IMG/VR virus record: IMGVR_UViG_3300003885_000499
Location: 1 to 22,005 of that record
Strand: one strand, 5' to 3'
Length of the DNA stretch: 22,005 nucleotides
DNA from: a virus
The position numbers and the translations under genes were made by a program. Position 1 is the stretch's first letter; the number at the start of each line of letters is the position of its first letter. Under the pieces are notes generated by a model that was given only the letters and a program-made list of their open reading frames with translations, did not search any database and was not told the origin of the DNA. Shown here piece after piece: positions 10,819-17,883 of the stretch.

Positions 10819-11453
10819 TTACCCTCTCCCCCTTTTATCTGTATAACCCCAGTGTCTCTAGGGTTCTCAAGTTCCAGTTGACCTAGACTTGGTTGTTGGT
10901 TTATGTACGAAGTTACGGCTCTGCGAAACGGCTCTATGAAATGATTGCGATATTTCCGTTGTGATGAATACGAACGAGAATCAGCAACGCGGACAGCAAA
11001 CCAGTTGTCCAGATTATCCACTCCTACATCTGCTACAAATTTACGAATAGTTTTTTCTCTCATTGCGTCACTAATGTCGAACATATGAGTTGAGACTAAA
11101 CGAAAAACGCGATCTACAACATAAGATGTAGCACCCCATTCAGACAATCTTGTTCTTACAATATTGGCAGATTCATTTGCGTGACCTGGGAATCTTGAGA
11201 AAGAACTGTCATCTACAGGAGCTATACACCCCTTGCCTAGATCGTGGAATAAGCCAGACAACAAAGTGATGGGGTTCTTAATATTCAGCAGGTCTATCAC
11301 ACACATTGTGTGTTCCCATACAGATTGCCCATTGTGTTGTATAACAGTATGAACAGCATCTAGTTCTGGAAATTCAATAACTGGGTCTGACCAATAACTA
11401 CTTGGCAAATTAGCTTCTTGCATTCCCTGGATTACTTTGTCAATTTGATTCAT
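10815..11453 (-). CDS. HD-domain phosphohydrolase
   Basis: Metal-dependent phosphohydrolase of 212 residues. The HD metal site is visible: H48 (VWEHT), H70-D71 (FHDLGK), H91 (FPGHA), H123 (STHMFD) and D158 (VADSR). The spacing and the VWEHTM...FHDLGKG...GHANESA order resemble the HD domain attached to bacterial CCA-adding enzymes, but no nucleotidyltransferase domain is present. Such stand-alone domains hydrolyse nucleotides or cyclic nucleotides. Placement directly before RNR, with overlap, favours a nucleotide-pool function. ATG at 11453 overlaps the upstream protease stop as ATGA. The substrate cannot be deduced. It is not a clear match to the phage dATPase DatZ. Confidence 0.85.
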   Translation of the reverse strand: MNQIDKVIQGMQEANLPSSYWSDPVIEFPELDAVHTVIQHNGQSVWEHTMCVIDLLNIKNPITLLSGLFHDLGKGCIAPVDDSSFSRFPGHANESANIVRTRLSEWGATSYVVDRVFRLVSTHMFDISDAMREKTIRKFVADVGVDNLDNWFAVRVADSRSYSSQRKYRNHFIEPFRRAVTSYINQQPSLGQLELENPRDTGVIQIKGGEGN

Positions 11454-12307
11454 GGGTTTGTTACCGCATTCTGGTCAATAAAACCAAACGCTGATGTCAT
11501 TGATACTGCATATGCTAAATGAGGGAACATTTGGCCATTCTTCTCTGTCATCGCTCTAAATGGTATGCCAACCAAGTAGTAGTTGTTGTCGTATTTTTTG
11601 AATAATCCACCACCACTTGACCCTGGTGTTATTTGCGCTGTAGTTCCGTAGATCAGCCATTCTTTTGTTCTTCTTCCTCTGTCTAATATTTGAGATATAA
11701 TACCAACTGTTGGAGATGGATTTCTACCAAGTTGACACCCTATTGCGAAAACTTCATCAAATACACGAACCTGTTTCAACATTTTTTTAGTAGGGATATT
11801 CGAGATATCCAACTCTTCCTTGGAAACGAAAGAAATCATTGCTAAGTCTTTTATTGCACTCTCTGATATGACTTTCGCCATGTATCCCGTCTTGTTTCTT
11901 TTTTCATAATCGAATGTTATCACCCAACACCCAGTATCAATAGTGCCTGTATGAATCTTGCCTGTCATTGAATCAACTTTAAGTATGTGTTTAGTTAGTC
12001 TTGAATGTGTAACATGTGCGTTGGTAAGTACGCGATATTCATACTCACCTTCTTCGTCTGTATCAATGCGATCTATAATGGTTCCCGACCCACTTCCTTG
12101 ATGGGTTTGTATTTGGACTACTGTATTCCGCATTTCTGTCTGTTTTAGAGCTATGTCATCAACAATAGATACTGTTTCTTTTGTGGTTTGTGAGCATTTT
12201 AATTCTTGTTCGTTACCTATTGCAGTAACAACGACGTAGGTTGTAGATAAAATATATCCAACATACAACATTGTGATTAACAAGATGATCTTATGTTTTG
12301 AAGTCAT
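11450..12307 (-). CDS. Membrane-anchored trypsin-like (HtrA-type) serine protease
   Basis: Serine endopeptidase of 285 residues that should act outside the cytoplasm. I start it at ATG 12307, which has GGAG seven bases upstream; the frame extends further but without a ribosome site. Residues about 6-28 form an N-terminal hydrophobic anchor or uncleaved signal. The chymotrypsin-fold triad is visible: H98 (TNAHVT), D154 (IKDLAMI) and S231 (TPGSSGGG). The domain begins with VVQIQTHQGSGSGTII, as in HtrA/DegP, but there is no PDZ domain after the catalytic domain. The stop overlaps the HD gene as ATGA. It is 63 bases downstream of a lipoprotein gene. An exported protease is rare in phages; possible roles include processing envelope proteins, superinfection exclusion or damaging a competitor. 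Confidence 0.87.
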   Translation of the reverse strand: MTSKHKIILLITMLYVGYILSTTYVVVTAIGNEQELKCSQTTKETVSIVDDIALKQTEMRNTVVQIQTHQGSGSGTIIDRIDTDEEGEYEYRVLTNAHVTHSRLTKHILKVDSMTGKIHTGTIDTGCWVITFDYEKRNKTGYMAKVISESAIKDLAMISFVSKEELDISNIPTKKMLKQVRVFDEVFAIGCQLGRNPSPTVGIISQILDRGRRTKEWLIYGTTAQITPGSSGGGLFKKYDNNYYLVGIPFRAMTEKNGQMFPHLAYAVSMTSAFGFIDQNAVTNP

Positions 12308-12370
12308 ATTGTATCTCCGGTAAAAAACAACGGCGACTAGAGTGGACAACACCGATACTCAAAATTTGAA

Positions 12371-12820
12371 TTATCCAGCAAATTCTTTCACTGCCGCTAG
12401 TGATCCATCAATTCCACCAGAGAGTAGAGCAAGAATTACCTCTTGGTCTTCTGTGATATTAAGATTGGCTGTTTGCAGATATCTTTCTAACACATCGATG
12501 ATTGTAAATCCATATACTTGATATTTTTCAGGCAGTTTGATTTCTACAAGAGACCTTGCTCCAGAGAAATTTGGTTGACCGGGTACTGCCAATAAATCTC
12601 TCAGAGCCACTAAATACCCCTTTATAAGATCGACATCATCTGCCGACATCTTTGCTTCTGTCAGTGCGATTCGTGTAGCCAGCTTAGAAAACATAAAAAT
12701 ATCTGCCTTTAACTGAGGCACATTTTCTTGCCAATTACCACCACCACGAGGTGCAACACACCCAACCATTGGCAAAACCAAGGCGACCAACATTATATTA
12801 ACCATGAACCATTTCTTCAT
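12371..12820 (-). CDS. Predicted lipoprotein
   Basis: Protein of 149 residues, function unknown. It has a short basic N-terminus, hydrophobic core and lipobox-like MVGC with the lipidated Cys at 21, followed by VAPRGGG, a typical flexible tether. The mature domain appears helical and mildly acidic, with no further membrane segment or Cys. ATG at 12820 has GGAG about seven bases upstream. It precedes the exported protease gene by 63 bases, so the two envelope-directed products may be made together and act together. An outer-membrane spanin is unlikely because no proline-rich or coiled-coil pattern is seen. Confidence 0.78.
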   Translation of the reverse strand: MKKWFMVNIMLVALVLPMVGCVAPRGGGNWQENVPQLKADIFMFSKLATRIALTEAKMSADDVDLIKGYLVALRDLLAVPGQPNFSGARSLVEIKLPEKYQVYGFTIIDVLERYLQTANLNITEDQEVILALLSGGIDGSLAAVKEFAG

Positions 12821-12892
12821 TTTTCTCTCCTTCTTTTTTTGCAGTAACCAAACAACCAGTTATTGTGTTATACACCTAGTTATGACCAACCA

Positions 12893-13216
12893 CTAAGAAT
12901 TATCTCTGTCTATTTTGTCTCTGCGGTGTTCCTTATTTAGTTTGTTTTCGTTTCCCTCTTTTTGACGACCAAATCTCCACCCCCTCTTTGGACGAGTGGG
13001 ACTACCTTGTTTAACTTCTGAATGTTCGATACGATACATCTCAGTGCATTCAACTCGTTCTGTATTAGTATCCGTGTGACTATTTCTACATACGCCATCA
13101 CATCGTAATCTGTGATTACCGACACAAGCGCATAGGTCTATACCGAGAAGACGTCTAAGTCTTTCTATCTTTTTCAATTCTCGCTTCTTTTTGTTTCTAC
13201 CCTGTTCGTTTGCCAT
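12893..13216 (-). CDS. Basic Cys-containing hypothetical protein
   Basis: Protein of 107 residues, unrecognised. It is strongly basic at both ends (NKKKRELKKIERLRR; KEHRRDKIDRDNS). A cysteine-rich stretch lies between, with C29, C31, C39, C43 and C57 plus nearby His, which might bind one metal ion. ATG at 13216 has AGGA about seven bases upstream and follows the sigma-factor stop by nine bases. A second frame is open inside it (12937-13125) but starts with GTG and lacks a ribosome site. Position after the sigma factor would fit a transcription-related or DNA-binding role, by inference only. Confidence 0.65.
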   Translation of the reverse strand: MANEQGRNKKKRELKKIERLRRLLGIDLCACVGNHRLRCDGVCRNSHTDTNTERVECTEMYRIEHSEVKQGSPTRPKRGWRFGRQKEGNENKLNKEHRRDKIDRDNS

Positions 13217-13225
13217 TGTTTGTTC

Positions 13226-13732
13226 CTATGCAATCCCGCATTTATGCCTTATTTTTTCGATAGCCCTTGTCTTTATTCTACATATAGTTGAAGCGACAAC
13301 CCCTTTATCTTTTGAAACCTCTCTCATTGTCTTCTCGTTGAAAAACAATTCTGTTATAACATCCCTCTCTTCATTATCCAGATAATCTAGATACTCTTGG
13401 ATCATCATATCTCTATTTATGTCGTATTCTGGACCAGCAACATTGACAACCGATTCCATCGATACGCCCTGATTTCTTTTGGCTCTATTCTCCGTATCTC
13501 TGAGATGCCTGAAAATACCATACAATCTAAAATATACGAACGTCATAAAGGAACCACTTTTGTCGTAACAGATCATACATTTGAGTATTTCATCATCTGC
13601 TCTCGACTTGAGTTCTTCTGTATGTATATTGTCTACACCTATAGTGAATGCCAATTTTTGAACCAATGGTGCATATTGCTCACGAGCCCGATAGAAATAT
13701 GACTTAGTGATACGACGCTTTGTTTTCATCAT
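13226..13732 (-). CDS. Sigma-70-like RNA polymerase sigma factor
   Basis: Small sigma factor of 168 residues. Residues about 40-85 resemble region 2 (ADDEILKCMICYDKSGSF followed by an aromatic-rich helix ending in LRD), which binds core polymerase and the -10 element. Residues about 115-165 form region 4, with LDNEERDVITELFFNEKT and the helix-turn-helix VSKDKGVVASTICRIKTRAIEKI. Region 3 is short, as in ECF-like or phage sigmas. ATG at 13732 overlaps the ClpP-like stop (TCATGATG). It should direct host RNA polymerase to a set of phage promoters, possibly middle or late genes. No cognate promoter motif could be defined from this window. Confidence 0.82.
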   Translation of the reverse strand: MMKTKRRITKSYFYRAREQYAPLVQKLAFTIGVDNIHTEELKSRADDEILKCMICYDKSGSFMTFVYFRLYGIFRHLRDTENRAKRNQGVSMESVVNVAGPEYDINRDMMIQEYLDYLDNEERDVITELFFNEKTMREVSKDKGVVASTICRIKTRAIEKIRHKCGIA

Positions 13733-14382
13733 GATTTCGGCCCCTTGTCTATTAACCTTTCCATTCTCGGAGTCCAGATATCGTCTATAACCCCTATTTT
13801 CATTGCTTGTTTGGGAGACATCCAGCTTGTAGTTTTCATTAGTTCAAGCAGTTGTTTTGTCGTCAGTTTAGTCCTTTTGGCTAGGTCAGCTATCTTGAGA
13901 CGATAATCTGTTTGAAAATACTCTGTCATTTCGTTGTGCTGTTCTATCGACCCTGGTAAACTATGAACAACCATAGAATGCAACATTAATGACGAGTTGG
14001 GTGTAGCATATCTGTGTCCCTTAGCTCCAAATGCAGCTATGATTGCACCCATAGAATGACCCTGACCACGAACGATGGTGTAAATAGGACATCTACAAGC
14101 AAGCATTTGATCGATAATCGCATATCCAGCAGAAAGACAACCGCCAGGACTATTTATATACATATAAACAGGGTGTGGTCTCAAGGAGAATAGTTGTAAA
14201 TAACTGCAAATATGCGATGACAATACTTCATCGATTTCTCCCACGACAAGTAATCGCCGGGTTTTTACCAAAAACTCTTCTACCAATTCATTCAAAACAA
14301 TCGGCACAGTAACTTCTACTTCCTCTTCGCATTGACACTCGGTTTTACAACCATCTCGTGGCTTCTTTCTGTTGGACTTCAT
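13729..14382 (-). CDS. clpP: ClpP-like serine protease
   Basis: Self-compartmentalising protease subunit, 217 residues from ATG 14382. I chose this ATG because AGAGGA lies just upstream and the preceding stop is adjacent (TAGAATG); an upstream extension would overlap the recombinase gene. The fold is shown by YMYINSPGG (74-81), the nucleophile S110 in GQGHSMGAII and H135 in SSLMLHSM. The third triad residue is normally the Asp of an RDxFMS motif. Here the aligned segment is KTTSWMS, with T185 at the Asp position. A charged N-terminal extension (1-25) with three Cys (C12, C16, C18) is unusual. It may pair with host Clp ATPases or be a capsid-type protease; no structural genes lie nearby, so the first is preferred. 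Confidence 0.87.
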   Translation of the reverse strand: MKSNRKKPRDGCKTECQCEEEVEVTVPIVLNELVEEFLVKTRRLLVVGEIDEVLSSHICSYLQLFSLRPHPVYMYINSPGGCLSAGYAIIDQMLACRCPIYTIVRGQGHSMGAIIAAFGAKGHRYATPNSSLMLHSMVVHSLPGSIEQHNEMTEYFQTDYRLKIADLAKRTKLTTKQLLELMKTTSWMSPKQAMKIGVIDDIWTPRMERLIDKGPKS

Positions 14383-14383
14383 T

Positions 14384-15256
14384 CTATTTTCCTCTTGGGT
14401 GACAACACTTATAGACTTCAACAAGACGATCATAGCTTATGGCCAAATATGTTTGAGTAGTTGACAAATGTTGATGACCAAGCAACTCTTGCACAAGTTC
14501 CAAATCCACACCACGGTTCATCAATGATGTAGCACAACTTCTGCGCAATACGTGTGGTGTTGTGTGGCTTACGCCAGCACGACGAGAAAGAGACATGAGC
14601 ATATCACTAATAGCTCGGCGTGTTATTCTCTGACCATTGGCTTTTACAAACAAAGCTTCTGTTTCAGATTTTCGTTCGTTGTCTATGTATACCTGTATTG
14701 ATTCTGCGCACTCTGGGGTAGTTGGGACCATCCTTTCCCTACCACCTTTCCCTCTGACTCTCAGAGTCCTTTTTGATAAATTGACATCGGGTAAATTGAG
14801 ACCGCACAATTCAGAGACTCGCAGCCCACTATGATACATGGTTAATATAACAGCGACATCCCTGCGAAAGTTAGTGGCTCTACATATAGGTACACGCTTT
14901 TCAACAGCAGCAATAAGGACATCCACAGCTTGAGGTTCCAATGCATCTGGTATTCTCCTGTTGATTCGGATTGGGTCTATCATATTGAGGATGTTTGGGT
15001 CAAGCAGACCAAGGCTTATAAGATGGTGATAAAAACAGCGGATAGACATACATTTTCGCCTAACCGTGGTTGGTTTACGGCCATTATGTCTCAAGTGATT
15101 TACAAATGTTTCTGTCAGTTGTGCGGTCAATTTTTGATCCCCGACGAACTCAAGGAATTCTTCAACATCTCTTGTGTACGCAGAAAGTGTTTCCTGTGAC
15201 AAACCAAGTTCGGTCCTAACATACGTTTCGAATCCGCTCATAATCAATGAGGACAT
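14384..15256 (-). CDS. Tyrosine recombinase (XerC/XerD-like)
   Basis: Site-specific DNA recombinase of 290 residues, full length. An N-terminal SAM-like core-binding domain (about 5-95) precedes the catalytic domain. All catalytic residues are present: R146 (SGLRVSEL), K170 (VRGKGGRER), H235-x2-R238 (PHVLRRS), H261 (LGHQHLS) and nucleophile Y270 (TQTYLAIS). The length and motif wording are closer to Xer than to lambda-type integrases. It is the first gene after a candidate promoter, with AGGA before ATG 15256. It could resolve genome dimers or integrate the element. No att or dif-like site was recognised nearby. Confidence 0.92.
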   Translation of the reverse strand: MSSLIMSGFETYVRTELGLSQETLSAYTRDVEEFLEFVGDQKLTAQLTETFVNHLRHNGRKPTTVRRKCMSIRCFYHHLISLGLLDPNILNMIDPIRINRRIPDALEPQAVDVLIAAVEKRVPICRATNFRRDVAVILTMYHSGLRVSELCGLNLPDVNLSKRTLRVRGKGGRERMVPTTPECAESIQVYIDNERKSETEALFVKANGQRITRRAISDMLMSLSRRAGVSHTTPHVLRRSCATSLMNRGVDLELVQELLGHQHLSTTQTYLAISYDRLVEVYKCCHPRGK

Positions 15257-15317: not shown

Positions 15318-16142
15318 TCATACCCTACGATGAGACGATTCAACCCATTCTGTCCCGTCGTCTAGTTTTGAGATAGTCATCCCATGAACAAACAGTGGGG
15401 CTTTATTTTGGATTATCTTGTACATCTTGACAGCAAGGCTTCTGATTTCAACGTCCGCTGATGGATTCGCACGAAGTTCTATAAAATGTCTAACGGCCCT
15501 GGCGTTCATCGTCACGAATATCTTGGTTTCTGTTGCATTAGGAAGCACAGACCTAGCGGCTTGACGAGCTTTTTTCCTTCTCTCAAGATTGCTCTCAATA
15601 TCGTCATACATATTTGATAGCTTGGTGGTAAGTTCCTCGTAAACCTGACGAGACTTTTCACAATGCTCAATCCACATTCTATAAGCATCAGGGTCTATAT
15701 TCGCTAATTCTTGAATAGCAGGAGGAACTACGAACGAAACACTAGACGAATCTACATACCTCTGGCTTAGTTGTGAGTATGATGCAAGACGATGCCTAAC
15801 TAATTCATGACTAAGGCTGCGAGATATATTCCATATTGCGAAGTTGAAATTTGCATGTTCTATACATGCACCGTGAGCTACTTCTATAAGATGTTGAATG
15901 TGAGCATCGTGAGACCTACCCTTTTTCGTCTCGCCTTGTTTTGGCCATGACTGGTAACACATCCTTCCTCCCATTTCTACCAACCATTCACCGTCGTCGT
16001 CTCCAAGAGAAACCATAGAATCCAGCTTCTTTTCAAGCTCCGGCCACTGATATCCATGATCTTCAAGGAATTTCATAACTCCATCAATTTCCATGATAGG
16101 TTTTCCGACTAATGCTATTTCCGGCTCAGTAACAAAACTCAT
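15318..16142 (-). CDS. thyX: Flavin-dependent thymidylate synthase
   Basis: Makes dTMP from dUMP using FAD, NADPH and methylene-tetrahydrofolate. The 274-residue protein starts at ATG 16142, directly behind AAAGGAG and the stop of the BrxL-like gene (TAGAATG). The ThyX signature RHRx7S is visible as RHRLASYSQLSQRY. Upstream lies the conserved WNISRSLSHELVRHR helix, and downstream the MNARAVRHFIELR segment that binds dUMP. It contains an N-terminal 40-residue extension relative to short ThyX. Together with dCMP deaminase (2154-2675) and RNR it forms a complete dTTP branch. The AAA+ gene just upstream is not an expected partner. Confidence 0.95.
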   Translation of the reverse strand: MSFVTEPEIALVGKPIMEIDGVMKFLEDHGYQWPELEKKLDSMVSLGDDDGEWLVEMGGRMCYQSWPKQGETKKGRSHDAHIQHLIEVAHGACIEHANFNFAIWNISRSLSHELVRHRLASYSQLSQRYVDSSSVSFVVPPAIQELANIDPDAYRMWIEHCEKSRQVYEELTTKLSNMYDDIESNLERRKKARQAARSVLPNATETKIFVTMNARAVRHFIELRANPSADVEIRSLAVKMYKIIQNKAPLFVHGMTISKLDDGTEWVESSHRRV

Positions 16143-16143
16143 T

Positions 16144-17601
16144 CTATTCTCCTTTGACTTTGTAAGATAGTTTAACACCACTAAATTCACTGGGGAGTAT
16201 CACAGCCAACTGATCGACTACACGACCACGAAGATCAACGGCCATATCTAACACCTGCTTCAATTCATGCGAAACAATAGTCGTTGCTGTTTTGTGTGGA
16301 AATATCAGCTTCAGTAATCCTGAGCCAATACGAATCAACGACCTTTGATTTCTTTGAGACATATCACCAAAATCCACATTATGGAGAATAACAGGAGCGT
16401 AGTTTCTTCCTCTCATTTGGTGCATGATTTCACTTATATAATCAGCCATGAACCCCGGCCCTTTAGCGAAATTAGATTCCCTTATTTGTTCAAATTTCCA
16501 ACCGGGTACGAATCCATGTATTCGATCCAAAAATGCGCGGTCTTGATTAACAGCTTGTGGAAGTGGAGAAAATAGACTTCTGTATCTAGATGATACCGTT
16601 TTGTTTTTTCTATCACAATCTATGTTTCCTGCGAACACGATAGAACAGTCAGAAGCAAACTCTGCGGTTCCACGACCAAACCGACCACTGTTCATAAAAT
16701 CTTTCAGCATATCTATAAGATCACCATGACTAGACCATTTACTTCCTCCGCGACCCGATGCAAATTCGTCGAACATTACTACGTCACGGTATCCGACAAG
16801 ACCAAGCTGACGCCGAAGTTTGTCGTAAAACAACGATGCGACAGTTGTTTGTCCACCAGATACCACAAAACCATGGGAACTAAGGGATTGATATGCAAAC
16901 GTTTTACCTGTTTCTGGTGGTCCTAGTTCACAAAGATTAACGTTAGCCTCTATAAAAGGAACAAGCCTAGTCATGTATAACAACTTCTCTTCATTAGACA
17001 AGCAATTTGGGTCAAATCCTATGCTTGTGATCATCACATCAAGCCATTCTTCATCTGTAAACTGTGCTCTACGACTAATCCATGTGTCTAGGTTAATTCC
17101 TGTTATTTGCATAGGACGGAATTCTGTTACTAAAAACGGATACAGTTTTTTTCTTATTGTGTATGATTCGTCGTACACGATTTTGAAGACACCCCAGGCT
17201 CCGGTTGTTAAAAGCGTTTCTCCATATTCTGCAATAAGATGTGGGTCTATTCGAACATATTGATTACCAAGAGATGTGACATCAACCCAATATTCGTCTT
17301 TACCCTCATCGAACCGACATCTTATACGACCTATAAGAGTATATTCCCCCTGTTCGCGGATACGACTTTTAACCAACTCCTTTTGGTCCGATTCCATAAA
17401 GTGAGCATCAAGCAATTTGCTGATACGATCCAACCCAGGAACAGGGTCTTCCGAATTAACCATCTCAGCAATAAGATAGTCAACGACGAATGTCGGAAGC
17501 TTGCGGAATTGCTCATTTAGACAAGCAAGACCTTTGTCTACGACGATACCGCGTTCTTTGAAAACCATTGAGACTTTATTATTTGTCTCGGTTCCAACCA
17601 T
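16144..17601 (-). CDS. BrxL-like AAA+ ATPase without Lon-type C-terminal domain
   Basis: Protein of 485 residues resembling BrxL, the MCM-like DNA-binding ATPase of BREX phage-defence systems. Residues about 30-150 match the BrxL N-terminal domain layout (FRKLPTFVVDYLIAEM, then LIGRIRCRF and a beta-rich segment). The ATPase domain has NLCELGPPETGKTF (Walker A 227-234), VSGGQTTVASLFYD, LGLVGYRDVVMFDEF (Walker B 275-279), a DFMNSGRFGRG segment and sensor IVFAGNID. The phrase order SGGQTT...LGLVG.DVV.FDE...GRF.RG is typical of the family. BrxL is usually about 680 residues and ends in a Lon-like domain, which this protein lacks. No other BREX gene is in the window. ATG 17601 has AGGAG. It may remodel or translocate DNA in replication, or act as a counter-defence decoy. 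Confidence 0.8.
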   Translation of the reverse strand: MVGTETNNKVSMVFKERGIVVDKGLACLNEQFRKLPTFVVDYLIAEMVNSEDPVPGLDRISKLLDAHFMESDQKELVKSRIREQGEYTLIGRIRCRFDEGKDEYWVDVTSLGNQYVRIDPHLIAEYGETLLTTGAWGVFKIVYDESYTIRKKLYPFLVTEFRPMQITGINLDTWISRRAQFTDEEWLDVMITSIGFDPNCLSNEEKLLYMTRLVPFIEANVNLCELGPPETGKTFAYQSLSSHGFVVSGGQTTVASLFYDKLRRQLGLVGYRDVVMFDEFASGRGGSKWSSHGDLIDMLKDFMNSGRFGRGTAEFASDCSIVFAGNIDCDRKNKTVSSRYRSLFSPLPQAVNQDRAFLDRIHGFVPGWKFEQIRESNFAKGPGFMADYISEIMHQMRGRNYAPVILHNVDFGDMSQRNQRSLIRIGSGLLKLIFPHKTATTIVSHELKQVLDMAVDLRGRVVDQLAVILPSEFSGVKLSYKVKGE

Positions 17602-17610
17602 TGTTTTCTC

Positions 17611-17883
17611 CTACAGACCAAGTAATCCAAGCGCATCTGACCGCTGGACAATCGCTTCTTCCTCAATAGACTCAGGAACCGTCGTATTTGTCGTTCTCGT
17701 ACCCTCTGCTGGACTTTGGAGACAAGATAGATGTATTGTTCCTACCAGTTCTTCTGAGCCATCAGGGTCGCAGAAATCCCAACATCCATTTTCCCAATCT
17801 GAGTCTGTACGGCAAATCCCAACGCTGCCCGTAAATATTCGTTCACCATGTTGGATTTTTTGACGACAAATTAGACATTCCAT
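17611..17883 (-). CDS. Small Cys/His zinc-binding-like protein
   Basis: Protein of 90 residues, not recognised. C3-x2-C6 at the N-terminus and H51-x2-C54 could form a treble-clef or RING-like zinc site, with C24, C34 and C38 as further candidates. The C-terminal 30 residues are acidic and probably disordered. Nine bases separate it from the BrxL-like gene downstream, and its start overlaps a 46-codon ORF by 13 bases, so it is probably cotranscribed with both. The ribosome site is weak, which fits coupling to the upstream ORF. A partner or adaptor role for the ATPase is inference from position. Confidence 0.65.
   Translation of the reverse strand: MECLICRQKIQHGERIFTGSVGICRTDSDWENGCWDFCDPDGSEELVGTIHLSCLQSPAEGTRTTNTTVPESIEEEAIVQRSDALGLLGL

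Follow-up and report, generated by a model that had tools for sequence, protein, structure and literature searches.

Large Uncultivated Phages of One Family Carry a Short, Catalytically Intact BrxL as a Core Gene

Introduction

BrxL is limited to BREX types 1 and 4 according to PMC12839542. Several BREX systems depend on it for restriction (PMC10164562, PMC12839542), and it has shown no conclusive helicase or strand-exchange activity (PMC10164562). The type 1 protein, represented by structures 8EMC and 8EMH, combines an N-terminal region and an AAA+ domain with a Lon-like C-terminal domain. The BrxL of type 4 BREX has no C-terminal extension (PMC12839542), e.g., the 474-residue protein of locus L061, encoded in a BrxP/BrxC/PglZ operon, and shortness by itself is therefore not anomalous in this family. 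A further group of short cellular BrxL (L065 to L074, e.g., L068:1-11428), found in Chloroflexota, Planctomycetota, Methylomirabilota, and others, is encoded by the last gene of operons for a BrxC-like protein, a PglXI-like methyltransferase, and PglZ.

Remote relatives are encoded by archaeal rudiviruses. The proteins SIRV2 gp18 and ARV1 gp16 have BrxL_ATPase as their sole Pfam match (44.9 bits against a cut-off of 25), and their alignment with the BrxL profile by hhalign covers the N-terminal region and the ATPase (E = 1e-16; 290 columns; 20% identity). Their genes adjoin a gene for a Cas4-like nuclease. These rudivirus genes are annotated "protease" (L301:1027-2337 and L302:991-2322), but their products belong to the BrxL_ATPase family and have no protease domain match. 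SIRV2 gp18 is called a characterized single-strand annealing protein in PMC8093625, and PMC5537682 mentions that a role in replication has been suggested for it; each cites Guo et al. (2015).

Here we analyze a BrxL encoded in a window of 22,005 bases, which is the whole of contig C11 in a 2.04-Mb MAG of 239 contigs. The window contains genes for RNR, ThyX, DnaB, UvsX, and dCMP deaminase-like, HD, and IMPDH-like proteins, together with ClpP-like, sigma region 4, and tyrosine recombinase genes. Because of these phage-type genes and its synteny with IMG/VR contigs of 110 to 181 kb, we interpret it as a contig of phage origin that fell into a bacterial bin.

Domain composition and predicted fold

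The following features define the protein.

16144-17601, minus strand: short phage-encoded BrxL, an MCM-like AAA+ ATPase of 485 residues (Pfam, TIGR, and PDB matches and predicted fold)
17173-17550, minus strand: BrxL_N region, residues 18 to 143, a helical part and an OB-fold (Pfam, 1.5e-27; AlphaFold model)
16168-17136, minus strand: BrxL_ATPase domain, residues 156 to 478 (Pfam, 5.9e-103)
16900-16923, minus strand: Walker A motif GPPETGKT, residues 227 to 234, with K233 (alignment of BrxL relatives)
16765-16782, minus strand: Walker B region, residues 274 to 279, ending in FDE, with D278 and E279 (alignment)

The product is a genuine member of the BrxL family with an intact ATPase site. Both domains named in the original prediction are present, with Pfam scores of 96.6 bits for BrxL_N (curated cut-off, 28.2) and 344.4 bits for BrxL_ATPase (curated cut-off, 25). 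The protein also scores 434.8 bits against the 449-position TIGR02688 "BrxL" model (cut-off, 329.3) and falls below the cut-off of the long-form BrxL model TIGR02653. Residues 17 to 480 align with 8EMC/8EMH, and although identity to type 1 BrxL is only ∼34 to 36%, the N-terminal region, AAA+ domain, catalytic residues, and fold are shared. The AlphaFold model, which is of a monomer (mean pLDDT, 90), has the BrxL cryo-EM structure 8EMH as its best fold match (TM, 0.85), followed by MCM proteins (TM, ∼0.4). MCM replicative helicases (∼12% identity) resemble the protein in fold only, there being no MCM family match in Pfam.

Residues K233, D278, E279, N326, R360, and R417 are invariant in an alignment of 50 BrxL proteins, and the Walker A, Walker B, GN(I), and DR motifs are all intact in the window protein. 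E279 aligns with BrxL E280, which is needed for restriction (PMC10164562), and the Walker B glutamate is retained in all 33 phage rows of the alignment. In one subgroup (L023), the Walker A sequence reads GGTETAKT instead of GPPETGKT. The counterparts of R104 and K287, DNA-contacting pore residues of 8EMH, are not basic in the window protein, and DNA contacts of the phage BrxL may therefore differ.

The short form is native

Type 1 BrxL has a Lon-like or HKD domain at its C-terminus. The window protein ends at residue 485, and the predicted lack of a Lon-type domain was borne out: its match to 8EMC stops at residue 470 of 679, ahead of the C-terminal domain (domain limits from PMC10164562), and the Pfam and TIGR models revealed no Lon protease domain with a Ser-Lys dyad. 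The next gene begins directly behind it.

15318-16142, minus strand: thyX, neighbor of BrxL, with its ATG at 16142 (no functional link is implied)

The BrxL stop lies at 16144, the thyX start codon lies one base further on the same strand, and relatives at 62 to 84% identity stop at the same point; a Lon-like domain hidden by a frameshift is thus ruled out. Recent truncation of a host type 1 BrxL is likewise ruled out by the tree (see below) and by protein lengths. Among 164 BrxL loci, the closest proteins (∼42% identity and up) are short, mostly 465 to 524 residues, with exceptions of 418 (incomplete) and 685 (open 5′ end) residues, while those of the 35% identity class mostly have 670 to 750 residues. 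The closest cellular relatives of the phage proteins are short too, and a form common to both is therefore not a recent phage truncation.

Phylogeny

In an unrooted tree, which implies no direction of transfer, the 33 phage BrxL rows form one clade (support, 100/100), and its sister (100/99) consists of nine short cellular BrxL. These relatives (within L065 to L074) are similar in length and 44 to 47% identical to the window protein, and where their loci are readable they encode the BrxC-like protein, PglXI-like methyltransferase, and PglZ, in contrast to the phages, which lack PglZ. Type 4 BrxL proteins, from BrxP-containing loci, share the short form but are only 25 to 30% identical and constitute a clade apart with starred support; a type 4 origin of the phage gene is ruled out by the tree.

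A second clade of orphan BrxL (L184, L191, L193, L195, and L200; 100/99) lies beside type 4, and two of its genomes, G029 (L184) and G031 (L200), have almost nothing in common with the lineage of the window. Another orphan short BrxL on a viral contig, L175, is placed elsewhere in the tree. The viral contigs of L175, L184, L195, and L200 are 157 to 260 kb in length, and PglZ was found in none of the four. Two records of the phage collection, L063 and L064, are bacterial type 1 BREX islands.

Genomic context and absence of BREX

No other BREX gene was found in the window, in agreement with the original prediction. BREX components were sought around the 164 loci with profiles grown from three operons: long BrxL loci mostly contain PglZ and PglX, type 4 short BrxL loci contain BrxP, BrxC, and PglZ, and the loci of this lineage have no BREX component within the flanks covered. 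Similarly, PglZ (PF08665) was absent from all 21 BrxL-bearing viral contigs searched (13 plus 8), which comprise 17 of this lineage and 4 other large viral contigs, and control genomes were positive. Absence from contig fragments weighs less than absence from complete genomes; terminal repeats suggest that G005 and G031 are complete. Among 131 proteins (110 to 1,400 residues) of the lineage genome G007, PADLOC indicated no other BREX component, whether BrxC, a methyltransferase, or a PAPS reductase, in the 25 of 41 families listed. The possibility of a defense island with a hidden PglZ was rejected, since none of the contigs searched yielded PglZ. PglZ was also not found in the MAG that holds the window contig, although this MAG need not represent the host.

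The block around BrxL also carries thyX, RNR, and recombination and replication genes, as well as a ClpP-like gene.

13729-14433: ClpP-like protease gene near BrxL

Trypsin-like, sigma region 4, and ClpP-like genes form a conserved block in the window (11450 to 14433). In G007, AAA+ ATPase and DUF3150 genes located upstream of BrxL (L045:3825-6930) are conserved in the lineage and were not found in the sister phages G020 and G023. G007 (L045 to L053) is intein and HNH rich: DnaB, UvsX, and both Pol III alpha pieces contain inteins, and the IMPDH-like gene has an HNH insertion. Scans for promoters and terminators gave chance-level results.

BrxL as a core phage gene

Contigs of the lineage were recruited by an unrelated marker, a tail-tube-like protein encoded ∼90 kb from BrxL in G007. 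Where the marker reached ≥69% identity, all 15 contigs of 119 kb or longer carried BrxL; in sister contigs, where it was 39 to 50% identical, none of the seven of 103 kb or longer did. The 15 contigs are not all independent, as G008 and G010 have identical BrxL, and two shorter contigs (77 and 90 kb; marker identity, ≥81%) without BrxL may be fragments. When G007 genes common to G005, G006, and G017 were ranked by mean identity, with intein-split genes compared over their best segment, BrxL was 11th of 72, above RNR, primase, UvsX, and portal. Strong purifying selection on the phage BrxL was shown by computation, with a dN/dS of ∼0.03 in one close pair, other pairs being saturated at synonymous sites.

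In this family of large uncultivated phages, the short BrxL is a routine and invariably present gene. Neither the major-capsid-like nor the tail-tube-like protein of the lineage had a match in INPHARED, and the open-license PMC literature (subscription papers and preprints being outside the scope) contained no report of orphan BrxL as a core phage gene.

A constant Cys/His partner

Instead of a BREX operon, the phage BrxL is accompanied by a small gene.

17611-17883, minus strand: 90-residue CxxC...HxxC protein with a C-terminal QRSDALGLL tail, constant upstream partner of the lineage BrxL

Proteins of this type have 67 to 103 residues with CxxC and HxxC motifs, and most have a tail of the form R[SN][DN][AI]L, which a few members (L147 and L152) lack or have in altered form. 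In 31 of the 34 loci of the lineage, the gene is located at most 976 bases upstream of BrxL, in some cases with an overlap, and the remaining three loci start close to or at the end of a contig. Five lineage genomes contain a single copy each, whereas searches of G020, G023, G029, and G031 found none. A fold search with the 90-residue protein returned nothing at an E value of <0.9, and a PDB sequence search gave weak matches only (best E value, 0.35). The suggested new defense module of BrxL and its two small neighbors is half right at most: the 90-residue protein is a constant partner, but relatives of the 46-residue open reading frame were detected at just 4 of 24 loci, and nothing indicates defense.

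Proposed function

We propose that this catalytically intact short BrxL, a phage core gene, most likely serves the DNA metabolism of the phage itself. Its constant presence in the phage family suggests use in DNA replication or recombination rather than in defense, although this step goes beyond conservation, from which we infer it, and core status alone cannot separate replication from packaging, transcription control, or other essential roles. The protein probably forms a single ATP-dependent ring on DNA, which would act in phage replication, recombination, or strand remodeling, and the Cys/His protein encoded just upstream would assist it, perhaps as a physical partner. The original prediction stands in part: of its three options, a DNA translocase in replication fits best, because the gene is universal in the lineage and strongly conserved, its catalytic residues are intact, and an archaeal virus encodes a relative within a DNA replication/recombination operon. 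The rudivirus proteins are, like the phage BrxL, virus encoded and short, with a BrxL_ATPase match and adjoining DNA-processing genes, and SIRV2 gp18 may offer a functional lead, not proof. A role as the replicative helicase is disfavored, since DnaB, primase, and Pol III alpha are present in the lineage and in its BrxL-less sisters. In G007, the set comprises DnaB, a Toprim primase, Pol III alpha, and UvsX, and several of these contain inteins; G020 and G023 have the same set.

BrxL, with the Cys/His protein, could alternatively provide phage-borne defense or superinfection exclusion, blocking replication of a competitor phage in the infected cell. The need for BrxL in BREX restriction (PMC10164562, PMC12839542) and the PglXI/PglZ operons of its closest cellular relatives are consistent with this, but it is unlikely given the absence of PglZ from all 21 contigs and of other BREX components from the PADLOC families listed for G007, and BrxL, fixed in the lineage and one of its best-conserved genes, does not resemble a typical accessory defense gene. 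Another essential role for a DNA translocase, such as packaging the genome, taking down the host chromosome, or controlling transcription, would suit a BrxL/MCM-fold protein whose gene is core and whose ATPase is intact. We consider it quite unlikely, as BrxL lies in the nucleotide-metabolism/replication block, outside the structural arm, and sister phages have the same capsid, portal, and tail genes yet lack BrxL.

A dominant-negative role against host BREX, also raised originally, would require a decoy subunit that poisons host BrxL rings, and the phage protein does lack the domain joining two rings in type 1 BrxL (PMC10164562). This is very unlikely: the Walker B glutamate and other ATPase residues are conserved, the gene is fixed, and the nearest cellular relatives are also short and not type 1. 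Mixed rings with type 1 BrxL are doubtful at an identity of only ∼35%, and the MAG, which need not be the host, lacks PglZ. An unfoldase acting with the ClpP-like protease of the same block is scarcely credible, since the AAA+ domain is BrxL/MCM-like rather than Clp-like and the two genes are not codistributed, BrxL-bearing G012 having no ClpP-like match and BrxL-less G023 a weak one.

Implications

Occurrence in this lineage, in a second clade in unrelated large phages, and in archaeal Ligamenvirales prompts a broader and tentative reading, rather unlikely in its entirety, that BrxL-type rings are recurrent viral DNA-processing machines, with the BREX effector drawn from or exchanged with viral replication machinery and the Cys/His protein a dedicated adaptor. 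The mode of BrxL action in BREX is unsettled, and a stand-alone, single-copy, conserved BrxL with one small partner would be easier to study biochemically. PADLOC and PHROG names label such viral genes as defense or protease; if BrxL is indeed a phage core gene serving phage DNA metabolism, then the label "defense" does not fix function.
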